From contig JANLFM010000009.1 in the NCBI GenBank assembly GCA_024655865.1, positions 1-64,000 of the forward strand: a DNA stretch of 64,000 nucleotides, read 5' to 3'. Position 1 is the first letter of the stretch; every line of letters starts with the position of its first letter. A model generated the notes under the pieces. That model made no database searches and was not told where the DNA came from. It saw nothing but the letters and a program-made list of their open reading frames with translations. The DNA comes from Caldisericota bacterium. Lineage in GTDB: Bacteria; Caldisericota; JANLFM01. Position numbers and translations under genes: made by a program. Of this stretch, positions 7,708-56,698 are shown one piece after another.

Positions 7708-7819
7708 CTTGTGGTTCCTCCTGCCCTTATTTTTACTTAAGATACCACATCCTGAAAAATTGCCAAGGGGGCGGTCTTGTCAGAGCTCAAATTTCTTGCT
7801 ATTTAAAGGAGGAAACGAG

Positions 7820-7990
7820 GTGACAATTTTGAGCGAAAAAATTGATACTGTTCATTTTAAATTAATCGAGACTCCCAAAAAGGATCTGAAGAAGGTCTGG
7901 GATTGCAGGGACTGCTCCTCATCCTGCCAGTCAGCCTGTAAGACCAGCTGCACCCTTGCCAACCAGGTCTGCCAGAGGGAAAACGAGTAA
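7820..7990 (+). CDS. SCIFF-type RiPP precursor (six cysteines), 56 aa, GTG start
   Basis: AAAGGAGG at 7805-7812, GTG at 7820; ...WDCRDCSSSCQSACKTSCTLANQVCQRENE with six Cys; immediately upstream of SPASM radical SAM gene. Confidence 0.9.
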   Translation: MTILSEKIDTVHFKLIETPKKDLKKVWDCRDCSSSCQSACKTSCTLANQVCQRENE

Positions 7991-8008
7991 ACAGGCATCC
8001 CATTTTAA

Positions 8009-9433
8009 ATGCTTGAGTTTCCCTGGAGAGAGGGCCAATTACACCTGTTCCAACTCGACGGCCACTTGCTTCTCTTTGATGTGGCTTCGTCTTCCCTTTT
8101 CCAAATAGATGAAGCAGCCTGGGCCATTCTGAAAGAAGGGAAAACCTCTCCCCTGGATGTCGCCCTGGCCAGGGCCCGGGAAAAATTCGGCCCAAAGGCG
8201 GAGGAAGCGTTTTATGAGCTGAAGCTTCTCTCTTTAAAAGGTCTGATACTGGCCCCTGATCCAGCTTTGAATGCTCAATATGCTCCATTTCCCTATCTCA
8301 AGGCCCTTTGCCTCAATTTAGCCCACGAATGTAACATGCGCTGTTCCTATTGCTTCGCAGGCCAGGGAACATATGGGGGCGAGAGAGGGCTTATGCCCCC
8401 GGAAGTGGCCAGGAAGGCAGTGGATTTCCTCCTGGAAAGATCTGGGCCCTTAAAGAGACTGGAAATCGATTTCTTTGGTGGCGAACCCCTATTGGATTTT
8501 TCCGTCCTTAAAGAGGCGGTGCTCTACGGAAAAGAGAGGGCGGAAAAGATGGGAAAGGAAATCAGGTTCACTGTAACCACAAACTGCCTCCTTCTGAGCG
8601 AACAGGTTGGGGAGTTCCTGAACAAGACGAACATGCGCGTGGTTTTGAGCATAGACGGTAGGAAAGAGGACCACGATAAAAATAGGCTCCTGATTAATGG
8701 GAAAGGGAGCCATGACCTGATCCTTTCCCGGATCAGGAAGTTTCTCTCCTCGCGCGGGGAAAAGCTCTACTACCTCAGGGGAACCTACACCGCCGAGACG
8801 TTGAATTTCCTGGACAATGCCCTTTACTTATTCGATCTGGGTTACTCTGAGGTCTCCATGGAACCCGTAGTAGCCTTACCCAATGAGCCTTACGCCATAA
8901 GAGCGGAGCACTTGCCGGAGATCTTCCGCCAATATGAGCTCCTGGCAAAGGAGATCGACCGTCGGGAAAGGGAGGGAAGGGAACTGCACTTCTTCCATTT
9001 TGAGGTGGATACCACGGGCCTGACCTGTGTCTCCAAAAGGCTTTCAGGTTGCGGGGCCGGTGTGGAATACCTGGCTGTTACTCCCTCGGGATCCCTCTAC
9101 CCCTGCCATCAATTTGTGGGGCGCTCTGATTTTAAGATGGGCACGGTCTGGGAAGGGATCACCAACCAGGAAAAGCTTGAGGAGTTCCGACACCTTAGCT
9201 TCCTGGAGAAAGAAAACTGCCGCACCTGCTGGGCGCGATACCTCTGCTCTGGAGGGTGTCACGCCAACCACCACCTTTTAAGCGGCAATTTGAAAAAGCC
9301 GGATTTCATAGGGTGCGAGATCACGAAAAAAAGGATGGAATGCGCCCTTTATCTGAAGCTCTTACGCAGGGAAAGGGGAAAGGGAAGTGCAAAGGAGCGA
9401 ACGGAAGGGCTTGAAAAGGAGTCTAATATTTAA
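8009..9433 (+). CDS. SCIFF radical SAM/SPASM maturase
   Basis: CNMRCSYCFAGQG radical SAM motif, GGEPLLDF, SPASM cysteines (CGAG...CHQF...CRTCWARYLCSGGCH); 18 nt after SCIFF stop. Confidence 0.93.
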   Translation: MLEFPWREGQLHLFQLDGHLLLFDVASSSLFQIDEAAWAILKEGKTSPLDVALARAREKFGPKAEEAFYELKLLSLKGLILAPDPALNAQYAPFPYLKALCLNLAHECNMRCSYCFAGQGTYGGERGLMPPEVARKAVDFLLERSGPLKRLEIDFFGGEPLLDFSVLKEAVLYGKERAEKMGKEIRFTVTTNCLLLSEQVGEFLNKTNMRVVLSIDGRKEDHDKNRLLINGKGSHDLILSRIRKFLSSRGEKLYYLRGTYTAETLNFLDNALYLFDLGYSEVSMEPVVALPNEPYAIRAEHLPEIFRQYELLAKEIDRREREGRELHFFHFEVDTTGLTCVSKRLSGCGAGVEYLAVTPSGSLYPCHQFVGRSDFKMGTVWEGITNQEKLEEFRHLSFLEKENCRTCWARYLCSGGCHANHHLLSGNLKKPDFIGCEITKKRMECALYLKLLRRERGKGSAKERTEGLEKESNI

Positions 9434-9462: not shown

Positions 9463-10467
9463 ATGAATAAAGCTATTCAAACGATTGATCTTGTAAGAGA
9501 GTTCAGGGTAAAGGCAGGGAAAGACAGGGAGAATCGCGTAATTAGGGCTCTGGACGGAGTCAATTTAGAGGTAGAACAGGGGGAGCTATTTGGCCTCCTG
9601 GGACCCAACGGGGCGGGCAAGACCACCCTGATTAAGATCCTGGTTACCCTGCTTTATCCTACTTCGGGGCAAGCCTTTGTGGATGGATTGGATGTGACCA
9701 GAGATGTCCTTCCCATCCGCCAGAGGATTAATATGGTTTCGGGCGGGGAATACTCAGGATACGGCATCCTCACGGTTAGGGAGACCCTGTGGATGTTTTC
9801 CCAGTTTTACGGCATCCCTTATAAGGTAGCCTTTGAAAGAATCAACGAGCTGTTAGAGGTAGTAGGGTTAAAGTCCGAGGCCAACACCAGAGTTTCCAGA
9901 CTTTCCACCGGAATGCGTCAAAAGATGAATTTCTGCCGGGGTTTCGTCACTGGTCCAAAAATTCTTTTCCTTGACGAACCCACTCTGGGATTGGATGTGG
10001 AAGCAGCTCGAGACATCCGGGCCTACATCAAAACGTGGATGGAAAAACATCGGGACAGGACAATTCTTTTGACCACCCACTACATGGCTGAGGCAGATGA
10101 GCTCTGCGATCGGGTAGCGATCATCGACCACGGGAAGATTCTGGCCTGTGATACTCCTCAAGCCCTTAAAAAAAGGGTTTCCGGGGGCTCCATTCTGGAA
10201 ATGTCCCTCTCCGGCCTCGATGAGTTAAGCTGGCTTAAGGGAAAGCCCGGGGTGAAAGGACTAACTTCCAGCTCCTCCATAGAAAAGAACCGCACCGCCC
10301 TGAAACTGGTATTGGAAAGCGAGGAGTTCGTTCCTGAAGTCATCAGGGAATTGAATCAAAGGGAAATCCCCATCCTCAGCGTGCAGTCAGTAGAACCTAC
10401 GTTAGAGGACGTCTTCCTCACTTTAGTAGGAAGAGGGTTGAGCGATGAGAATTCCACCACCCCTTGA
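9463..10467 (+). CDS. ABC-2 type transporter ATP-binding protein
   Basis: GLLGPNGAGKTTLIKIL, LSTGMRQKMNFCRG, ILFLDEPTLGLD. Confidence 0.93.
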   Translation: MNKAIQTIDLVREFRVKAGKDRENRVIRALDGVNLEVEQGELFGLLGPNGAGKTTLIKILVTLLYPTSGQAFVDGLDVTRDVLPIRQRINMVSGGEYSGYGILTVRETLWMFSQFYGIPYKVAFERINELLEVVGLKSEANTRVSRLSTGMRQKMNFCRGFVTGPKILFLDEPTLGLDVEAARDIRAYIKTWMEKHRDRTILLTTHYMAEADELCDRVAIIDHGKILACDTPQALKKRVSGGSILEMSLSGLDELSWLKGKPGVKGLTSSSSIEKNRTALKLVLESEEFVPEVIRELNQREIPILSVQSVEPTLEDVFLTLVGRGLSDENSTTP

Positions 10468-11269
10468 GCTCTTTATCCGCTCCATAATCGGCAGGGCATA
10501 CCCCAGGGTCATTGGTGCCAACAGGGAGCTTTCCTGGCTTATTCCGGAAACCGTTCTCCCTCTTTTAGGGCTGGCAGCTTACGTTTATGTCTATCGGGCG
10601 ATGAAGGCACCGACGGAATTTGTGGGATACGTGGTCTTAGGAGGCGCCATGACGGCTTACTGGTTGAATATCCTCTGGAGCATGGCCTCACAATTCTACT
10701 GGGAGAAGGAGACAGCCAATCTGCAACTGTATATCATGGCCCCGGTTTCACCAATGGCCATCCTTTTAGGAATGGGAATCGGAGGTCTTGTCGCCAGCAC
10801 TATCCGAGCGGGAGCGGTAATTATAGTCGGAAGCCTACTTTTCGGCGTCACATACCAGGTGTCGAGCCTCGGCCTCATTCTCCTGGTTTTTTTCCTCTCC
10901 ATGGTGGCCCTCTACGGCATGGGAATGCTCCTTGCTTCCCTATTCCTACTTTCGGGCAGGGAAGCCTATAATCTTTCCAATGCCCTTCAGGAACCAGTTT
11001 ATCTTTTTTCCGGCTTTTATTTCCCGGTTAAGAGCCTGGGGTTCTGGGCAGCCGCCGTGGCTTCCATCATCCCCCTTACTTTAGGCCTGGACGCCATGAG
11101 ACAACTGATGTTCCCTGGTGATCCCACTTTGGGGTTTCTCTCGCCCTGGGTCGAATGCGGAATACTTCTACTTCTCTGCCCCCTGTTTCTCTACCTGGCG
11201 AAAGTCGCCCTGGTAAAAATGGAGCGCGCGGCAAGAATTAAGGGCACATTGAGCTTAAGATGGCAGTGA
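10445..11269 (+). CDS. ABC-2 type transporter permease
   Basis: Six-TM hydrophobic pattern, LSGREAYNLSNALQEPVYLFSGFYFPV; overlaps ATPase gene. Confidence 0.85.
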   Translation: MRIPPPLELFIRSIIGRAYPRVIGANRELSWLIPETVLPLLGLAAYVYVYRAMKAPTEFVGYVVLGGAMTAYWLNILWSMASQFYWEKETANLQLYIMAPVSPMAILLGMGIGGLVASTIRAGAVIIVGSLLFGVTYQVSSLGLILLVFFLSMVALYGMGMLLASLFLLSGREAYNLSNALQEPVYLFSGFYFPVKSLGFWAAAVASIIPLTLGLDAMRQLMFPGDPTLGFLSPWVECGILLLLCPLFLYLAKVALVKMERAARIKGTLSLRWQ

Positions 11270-12141
11270 GCTTTGAAGTCCCACGCAGGGGCTCAACACT
11301 TAAGGAAATCTGGATTCAGTTCAAGCAGGCTAGCCGCCTGGGCTGGCTGATTGAGAGCAACTGGGCTGATCCTTTCGTCTTTGCGGTTTACTCTTTGATT
11401 CGCCCCCTTTCCACAGCCCTGATTCTGGTCTTTATGTACCTCGTGGTGGTCAGGGGTTCAACCAGCAACCCCTTTTTTGTCCACCTTTACATCGGGAACG
11501 CCTTTTTCATGTACGCTGGAAGAGTAATGATGGGAATTTCCTACGCTATCATTGACGACCGGGAGCATTACGAGATGTTGAAGTACATTTACATTTCCCC
11601 TTTGAAGATCTTCGTCTTCCTTCTGGGTCGGGGAGTTGCCCAGGTAATTACTACCACGGTTTCCGTTCTCGTAATTTTACTATTAGGTCTCTGGCCCCTG
11701 GGCATCCGCATTCCCTGGAGTTCCCTGAATTGGCCGCTTTTCTTTATATCCTTCCCGTTAGGGATTATCGCCATTGCTTTTATGGGATACCTAATTGCTG
11801 GCCTCGCCCTGGTTATAGCTCGACACTCCTGGGCCATCGCGGACGGGGTGGGGGCGGTACTTTACGTGGTAAGCGGAGCTATTTTTCCCATAGATATTCT
11901 CCCTTCCTGGGTACAGGTTATTTCCAGGGCAATTCCTTTGACCTACTGGCTGGAGCTTCTGCGCCGCTCGCTTCTGGGCTCGTCCTTTTCTCCCTCTTTT
12001 AACACCATGCCGGATTGGGAACTCTTCCTCTGGCTTGTGGGTTTGACCGTGTTCTTTGGTTTTCTGGGCTATTTTGTTTTCCAGAGGATGAACATAGTGG
12101 CCCGAAGAAAAGGGCTCATTGACCAGACCTCGGGGTATTAA
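11260..12141 (+). CDS. ABC-2 type transporter permease
   Basis: ABC-2 membrane pattern, VVSGAIFPIDILPSWVQVISRAIPLTYWLELLRRSLLG; overlaps previous permease. Confidence 0.85.
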   Translation: MAVSFEVPRRGSTLKEIWIQFKQASRLGWLIESNWADPFVFAVYSLIRPLSTALILVFMYLVVVRGSTSNPFFVHLYIGNAFFMYAGRVMMGISYAIIDDREHYEMLKYIYISPLKIFVFLLGRGVAQVITTTVSVLVILLLGLWPLGIRIPWSSLNWPLFFISFPLGIIAIAFMGYLIAGLALVIARHSWAIADGVGAVLYVVSGAIFPIDILPSWVQVISRAIPLTYWLELLRRSLLGSSFSPSFNTMPDWELFLWLVGLTVFFGFLGYFVFQRMNIVARRKGLIDQTSGY

Positions 12142-55180: not shown

Positions 55181-56698
55181 TTACCTGCTTGTCTGGACGT
55201 ACAACTCGAACACCCGCCGAAAATGAAAACCGTAGATCGCCAATGTAATAGCTGTGGCGAAAGCCCGCGGTCGATGAAATAGGGTCCAGCGAGCGATCCG
55301 CCAGAACTGCATCCGTTCCACGCCGCGAATGCCCAGCCTGTAGATAGCGCGGAGGAAAGCTTGAATGTACTGCGGGGCAGACCTCCAGTCAATGAGCGTC
55401 TTGAGCCCCGGCACTTGATAATCTTGCAGGAACGTGCGAATTCGCTCGTAATACGCTTTTGGAGCATAGATCTGTTGCAAAATGTAATGGTAACCACGCA
55501 GAAGTACCGAGAGATTCATCACGGGAACAATGTTCGTGGTACCATCCACGTTATCTCCGGATGACCCACCCGCCAAACGGTTCTCCCCCTTTAACCGTTG
55601 GTACAGACGAGTGCCTGGCAGAGCCTGCAAAAGTCCTACCATCGCCGTTACGATGCCGCTCTTCTGGATTAATTCCACCTGCCGCTGAAAAATGGAAGGG
55701 GGATCGTTGTCGAACCCTACAATAAATCCTCCTTGTACCTGCATACCCGCTCGGTGAATGCGCTTTACGCTCTCCACCAGATCCCGGCCTCTGTTCTGAA
55801 GCTTTCCACACTCGATCAGGCTATGTTCCTCCGGTGTTTCAATACCGATAAAGACCATATGAAACCCGGCCTCCACCATCATACGCATCAAATCGTCGTC
55901 ATCTGCCAAATCGATCGTGGCCTGAGTGTAAAAGGACATCATCCTCTTTTTCTCCTTGCGCCACCGAATTAAAGCAGGAAGCAGATCATTCTTCACCTGC
56001 TGCCGAGCACCGATAAAGTTATCATCGACAAAAAATACGCTACCGCGCCACCCCAGGGAATAAAGAGCATCCAGCTCGGCGATGACCTGGGCCGTAGTCT
56101 TTGTCCGTGATTTACGACCAAACATAGCGGTAACGTTGCAAAACTCACAATTGTATGGGCAGCCGCGAGAGAATTGAACGCTCATGGAGTTATATTGATG
56201 GAGGTCAAGCAATTGCCAGAGAGGGATGGGCGACTGGCGAATGTCCGGGAATTCTCCACTGGTATACACTCGCCGAGTCTCCCCACTTTCGAGATCCTTG
56301 AGAAATTCAGGCAGGGTTGACTCAGCCTCATTCAATACGAAGGTATCGACCTTATCAAACTGCTCCCAATCTCCCATGAACAAAGGACCTCCAGCCACCA
56401 CCTTGACCCCGGCGGCATGACAGCGGTCGATGACCTGAGCGGCGGATTCCCTTTGCACGACCATGGCACTGATCATAACCAGATCCGCCCAGGCCAGATC
56501 CTCATCGTTTAAAGCACGAACATTGAGATCCACCAATTTTTTGGGCCAATCTGCTGGCATCAGGGCGGCAACGGTGAGAAGACCCAATGGGGGCGATGCG
56601 GCTTTCTTTCCGATGAAATGAAGAGCGTGCTTGAAACTCCAGAAAGTGTCAGGAAACTCAGGGTATACCAGCAGGACATTAAAACGCTTTTTTCCCAA
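55181..56698 (-). CDS. B12-binding domain radical SAM protein
   Basis: N-terminal cobalamin-type domain (LLTVAALMP...), FSRGCPYNCEFCNVTAMFGRKSR radical SAM motif, FFVDDNFIG. Confidence 0.92.
   Translation of the reverse strand: MGKKRFNVLLVYPEFPDTFWSFKHALHFIGKKAASPPLGLLTVAALMPADWPKKLVDLNVRALNDEDLAWADLVMISAMVVQRESAAQVIDRCHAAGVKVVAGGPLFMGDWEQFDKVDTFVLNEAESTLPEFLKDLESGETRRVYTSGEFPDIRQSPIPLWQLLDLHQYNSMSVQFSRGCPYNCEFCNVTAMFGRKSRTKTTAQVIAELDALYSLGWRGSVFFVDDNFIGARQQVKNDLLPALIRWRKEKKRMMSFYTQATIDLADDDDLMRMMVEAGFHMVFIGIETPEEHSLIECGKLQNRGRDLVESVKRIHRAGMQVQGGFIVGFDNDPPSIFQRQVELIQKSGIVTAMVGLLQALPGTRLYQRLKGENRLAGGSSGDNVDGTTNIVPVMNLSVLLRGYHYILQQIYAPKAYYERIRTFLQDYQVPGLKTLIDWRSAPQYIQAFLRAIYRLGIRGVERMQFWRIARWTLFHRPRAFATAITLAIYGFHFRRVFELYVQTSR

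Follow-up and report, generated by a model that had tools for sequence, protein, structure and literature searches.

A SCIFF peptide locus outside Clostridia, most likely in a deep-branching family of Caldisericota, with adjoining ABC-2 exporter genes

SCIFF peptides have previously been described mainly from Clostridia, as a clostridial trait, and their function is unsettled. In CteA/CteB, the thermocellin system of Clostridium thermocellum (PDB 5WGG, 5WHY), a precursor with an RRE-binding leader strand is paired with a radical SAM maturase bearing a SPASM domain, and the crystal structure of CteB shows the open site of Aux I occupied by a cysteine ligand from the CteA fragment (PMC6231123). 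A second SCIFF pair with a clostridial host, Tte1186a/Tte1186 of Caldanaerobacter subterraneus, has a mapped Cys-Thr thioether, as recounted in a review (PMC8172795). The freyrasin system PapA/PapB of Paenibacillus likewise relies on radical SAM/SPASM maturation to yield non-alpha thioethers, there in connection with CX3D motifs.

The gene pair described here, scfA-scfB, lies in a 64,000-nucleotide stretch of DNA (the window) from genome G000 (1.82 Mb, 96% complete), the family and genus of which are denoted f1 and g1. It has the same leader strand and maturase architecture as CteA/CteB, and the core of ScfA matches the clostridial consensus, CQSACKTSCT.ANQ.C. In contrast to CteA/CteB, its host belongs to another phylum, its leader is longer, the first loop of its core reads CRDCSSSC rather than the clostridial CGECQTSC, and ABC-2 exporter genes lie directly 3' of scfB. 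We consider it very probable that the locus is a SCIFF ranthipeptide system of a deep-branching Caldisericota family, most likely of vertical descent, in which ScfB forms a Cys-Thr thioether and the ABC-2 genes possibly serve in export.

The scfA and scfB genes

The precursor gene scfA (7820–7990, forward strand) has a GTG start, preceded by 7 nt by a ribosome-binding site read from the sequence (AAAGGAGG; 7805–7812, forward strand), and encodes 56 residues (MTILSEKIDTVHFKLIETPKKDLKKVWDCRDCSSSCQSACKTSCTLANQVCQRENE). Its TAA stop ends at 7990 and the ATG of scfB follows at 8009 on the same strand, leaving a gap of 18 nt; the initial annotation had placed the six-cysteine peptide and the radical SAM enzyme at exactly these positions. 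Its 56-residue reading frame likewise holds, although not the C-terminus given there, as the peptide reads to NQVCQRENE and does not stop at CQ. The product passes the cut-offs of TIGR03973 (54.5 bits, cut-off 50) and PF13165 (55.2 bits, cut-off 27), scfA occurs as a single copy in G000, and the pair recurs in a second species of g1 and in two further genera of f1; on these sequence grounds, scfA is not a chance open reading frame. The core (Cys29 to Cys51; 7904–7972, forward strand), delimited from the sequence and 124 tabulated homologues, has cysteines at 29, 32, 36, 40, 44, and 51, giving the pattern CX2CX3CX3CX3CX6C. The tabulated set comprises 49 peptides from the host phylum and 75 clostridial peptides, the latter being the matches listed in a pattern scan, so that clostridial frequencies are those of that sample.

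The maturase gene scfB (8009–9433, forward strand) encodes 474 residues and scores 511.5 bits against TIGR03974 (cut-off 425), with CteB as the closest solved structure by sequence (PDB 5WGG/5WHY, 418 bits), which together with the TIGR03973 match bears out the proposed SCIFF identity of both genes. In the PDB sequence search, the alignment with CteB begins at residue 10 and spans the N-terminal domain. The radical SAM motif CX3CX2C (Cys108, Cys112, and Cys115; 8330–8353, forward strand) and the seven-cysteine motif of SPASM ligands (Cys348, 366, 404, 407, 413, 417, and 436; 9050–9316, forward strand; TIGR04085 match) do not vary across an alignment of 18 phylum and clostridial maturases, nor do Cys101 and Cys340. 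ScfB would carry one [4Fe-4S] cluster that cleaves SAM, along with two auxiliary clusters in its SPASM domain. The CteA fragment in the crystal ends at its only cysteine, which is the first of the precursor, and this cysteine (Cys1) is present in every tabulated SCIFF peptide (n = 124).

ScfB also scores 448 bits against the not_ScfB model and 271 bits against PapB, which might suggest an enzyme of a related but different class, either of the PapB/freyrasin type or an orphan ScfB-like protein. However, both scores fall below their cut-offs (855 and 340 bits respectively), as does that of the Nif11-type model, whereas TIGR03974 is passed and ScfA lacks CX3D repeats, making such an assignment highly improbable.

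Elsewhere in the window, two adjacent deoxynucleoside kinase genes (PF01712; 5957–7209, reverse strand) overlap by 4 nt and are conserved in G001, and a B12-binding radical SAM protein with a DUF4070 domain (55181–56698, reverse strand) is apparently unrelated to the SCIFF locus.

Leader strand, cross-link and cysteine loss

The leader had been thought unlike that of clostridial peptides, a description that does not hold for its RRE-binding strand. Alignment with the CteA leader of 5WGG (MKHIKILNGSTLKDSLKKGGC) and with family leaders identifies the strand TVHFKLI (residues 10–16; 7847–7867, forward strand) as the predicted binder of the RRE domain. Aligned to CteA, the ScfA leader reads TVHFKLI-ETPKKDLKK-VWDC, nearly retaining the His-to-Cys1 spacing seen in 5WGG, and other f1 leaders read ATHIELIDTPKEDL, MKHVQLIDAPRQDL, and ACHVELIDSPLVNL. 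The difference lies instead in an N-terminal extension of ~9 residues and in the loss of the Gly-Gly before Cys1; 28 residues precede Cys1 in ScfA, compared with 20 in 64 of the 70 clostridial peptides with a callable start among the matches listed. The conserved strand is a putative ligand of the N-terminal domain of ScfB, to the RRE beta-sheet of which it would add a strand. No C39 (Gly-Gly) peptidase was found, either in G000 or on searching 25 good-quality genomes; this fits the loss of the Gly-Gly, and export by way of a C39 peptidase was dropped as a candidate on this account.

Two positions have been assigned to the SCIFF thioether. In the accounts given by two reviews (PMC8326336, PMC8172795), two in vitro studies, of Tte1186a and CteA, placed it between Cys32 and Thr37, and later co-expression placed it between Cys32 and Thr34, through a C-gamma link. 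These assignments map onto Cys40-Thr45 and Cys40-Thr42 of ScfA, respectively. The initial annotation had adopted the former, the earlier of the two, which came from the in vitro work; all 49 tabulated phylum peptides have threonine at the Thr45 position. Among the clostridial matches listed, however, 42 of the 75 peptides carry Thr at this position, 30 carry Gly, and 3 carry Ser (Gly or Ser in 33), whilst the Thr42 position is Thr in 75 of 75. Because co-expression gave Cys32-Thr34, and because Thr42 is invariant where Thr45 is often replaced by glycine in clostridial peptides, Cys40-Thr42 is favoured and a Cys40-Thr45 bond appears quite unlikely. Cys40-Lys41-Thr42 (7937–7945, forward strand), corresponding to Cys32/Thr34 of CteA, would then hold the most likely donor and acceptor, with Thr42 rather than Thr45 the likely acceptor. 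L089, a clostridial locus outside the tabulated pattern, has a frame that opens just past Cys1 and alanine at the Thr42 position.

By homology to CteA/CteB, ScfB would generate a 5'-deoxyadenosyl radical that takes a side-chain hydrogen from a threonine, most likely Thr42, which would then be joined to the sulfur of a cysteine, most likely Cys40, forming a non-alpha thioether with the loss of 2 Da.

Cys1, Cys2, Cys3, and Cys6, along with the threonine of the CKT motif, are invariant in all 124 tabulated peptides across the two phyla. SCIFF loci in other families of the phylum (for example G008) have the same gene pair, Cys1-Cys2-Cys3 spacing, and CKT motif as ScfA, but most of these peptides lack Cys5, and most end in an aromatic tail (KRWIW, RFIW, and similar). 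Of the 49 phylum peptides, 39 have Val, Ser, Met, or Asn in place of Cys5, with five-cysteine SCIFFs carrying Val, Ser, or Met at this position in f2 (L002-L010), f4 (L018-L024), and f5 (L154, L188, L189). Cys4, the mapped donor, gives way to alanine in f6 (five species, two genera) and to serine in three clostridial peptides among the matches listed. The f6 loci (L157, L158, L185-L187) encode four-cysteine SCIFF-like peptides, CRECQTPCKSAAKTANT..NQ.C, that lack both Cys4 and Cys5 and adjoin a maturase. One f6 peptide scores 44.8 bits against a cut-off of 50, and the maturases of f6 retain every cluster ligand but score 359–387 bits on TIGR03974, below its cut-off of 425. To our knowledge, the loss of Cys5, or of Cys4 and Cys5 together, elsewhere in the phylum has no earlier account.

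Given the loss of Cys4 in five f6 and three clostridial peptides, in each case next to a maturase that retains its ligands, the mapped bond is not a universal product, and the persistence of the four-cysteine pair without the mapped donor implies either that another donor is used or that the conserved function is not the Cys4-Thr bond. It is conceivable, although we lean against it, that the conserved job of SCIFF is independent of the mapped Cys4-Thr thioether, with the essential product being some other cross-link, or else a site formed by Cys1, Cys2, Cys3, and Cys6 for a metal or a cluster. L050, a clostridial locus, encodes two tandem SCIFF units in one frame (an open reading frame from position 959 on the forward strand), and a similar pair of adjacent matches occurs in G067.

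Host, distribution and descent

The suggestion that the host might lie outside Clostridia is upheld, since its own phylum differs and f1 stands apart from the clostridial rows in RpoB; the host most likely belongs to Caldisericota in the GTDB sense. In the RpoB tree, read without L214 (which looks like a wrong open reading frame) and L225 (partial), both unreliable, f1 takes a position intermediate between the rows of Clostridia and those of the remaining phylum families; rRNA identities differed too little for f1 to be placed by them. RpoB frames span 1145–1200 residues in most of f1 and in f5, compared with about 1380–1440 residues in f2, f3, f4, f6, and f7 (L215-L224), where profile matches split near position 700, probably reflecting a large insertion. 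L034 (JAMCVT010000088.1), a clostridial-type SCIFF locus titled Actinobacteria bacterium, appears to be mislabelled, as the RpoB of its genome groups with Thermincola and Bacillota rows.

SCIFF is present in 50 of the 54 species sampled from the seven families of the phylum, several of these relatives being fragmented metagenome assemblies, and likewise in 101 of the 118 genomes sampled from the class to which Faecalibacterium prausnitzii belongs, so that it is about equally universal in the phylum and in Clostridia. One negative species, G019 (96% complete), is missing the maturase as well, and the other three (G004, G034, and G062; 75–86% complete) match the maturase model only weakly. A literature search found no paper joining Caldiseri* with SCIFF or ranthipeptide; Caldisericota members are probably listed in public family databases, and this gap is no proof that they are unreported.

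The maturase trees recover each multi-member family as a single clade and group f3 and f7 with f6, as does the RpoB tree. Acquisition of the f1 genes from a Clostridia-like donor, apart from the rest of the phylum, would account for the identity of the f1 maturase to the best clostridial enzymes among the matches listed (47–48%, versus 37–42% to other phylum families), for the placement of f1 and Clostridia on one side of a branch with 100/100 support, the strongest inner branch of the tree without outgroups, and for the CQSACKTSCT.ANQ core common to both. However, by RpoB f1 is likewise intermediate between Clostridia and the remaining families, the AU test does not reject (p 0.42) a tree in which Clostridia form one clade that excludes f1, and the longer branches of the other families lower identity without any transfer. 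Rooting of the maturase tree gave no direction, with both outgroup rows on very long branches and not grouping. Such a transfer therefore seems fairly unlikely, and as the maturase tree broadly follows RpoB, vertical inheritance of SCIFF within the phylum is the simpler and most likely reading.

ABC-2 exporter genes and the role of SCIFF

Downstream of scfB, and on the same forward strand, lie genes for a DrrA-like ABC-2 exporter ATPase (9463–10467; PF00005, PF13732), which begins 29 nt after scfB, and for two permeases, permease 1 (10445–11269; PF01061) and permease 2 (11260–12141; PF01061), found in the same place in G001 with 92% and 85% identity respectively. The ATPase scores 300.7 bits against TIGR01188, the model of daunorubicin-type DrrA, below its cut-off of 312.45, and is for this reason termed DrrA-like rather than DrrA. 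The order scfA-scfB-ATPase is kept in G001 and in every SCIFF-bearing genus of f1 (three in all), with a junction between scfB and the ATPase gene of about 30 nt in g1, 1 nt in G003, and a 17-nt overlap in G002. Scans for promoters and terminators performed no better than chance. We know of no earlier account of this linkage in f1. Among the clostridial matches listed, none of the 63 loci with at least 3 kb of downstream sequence has an ABC-2 ATPase directly 3' of scfB, and three of them have DrrA-like matches 0.8–4.5 kb away. Neither is such an exporter adjacent to SCIFF in the other families of the phylum, where the permease orthologue lies elsewhere or is absent. The exporter is not obligate for SCIFF, since G019 has the permease orthologue but no SCIFF, and f3, f6, and f7 have SCIFF but no close orthologue of the permease.

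Whether the ABC-2 genes handle the SCIFF product, or are ordinary neighbours with a separate job, we regard as evenly poised. The permease orthologues of other families are 41–54% identical and sit far from SCIFF (in G008 at 214 kb, with SCIFF at 1376 kb), they persist in G019 in the absence of both SCIFF and its maturase, and, between the two g1 species, conservation is higher for the ATPase and permease 1 (89–92%) than for scfB (74%), all of which would suit a separate job. In favour of a functional link, the arrangement is kept across three genera with maturases only about 60% identical, whilst the neighbours upstream of scfA differ between g1 and g2, and the scfB and ATPase genes of G002 overlap. 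The scfAB and ABC-2 genes appear to form one operon in f1 and would be co-transcribed. Export of the peptide, or of a product of it, by the ATPase and two permeases (9463–12141) is a reasonable candidate role, special to f1.

Disruption of SCIFF in Clostridium beijerinckii lowered the expression of sporulation genes and raised that of agr (PMC8102284), and by analogy the Caldisericota peptides may have a signalling or regulatory role. The exporter-linked SCIFF of f1 offers a candidate answer to how the peptide leaves the cell. Additionally, the phylum provides a natural series of six-, five-, and four-cysteine precursors, each with its own maturase, making directly testable the question of which cysteines matter. 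That a second phylum has retained SCIFF near-universally, and apparently by vertical descent, suggests a core role in physiology and not one that is antimicrobial or purely clostridial.
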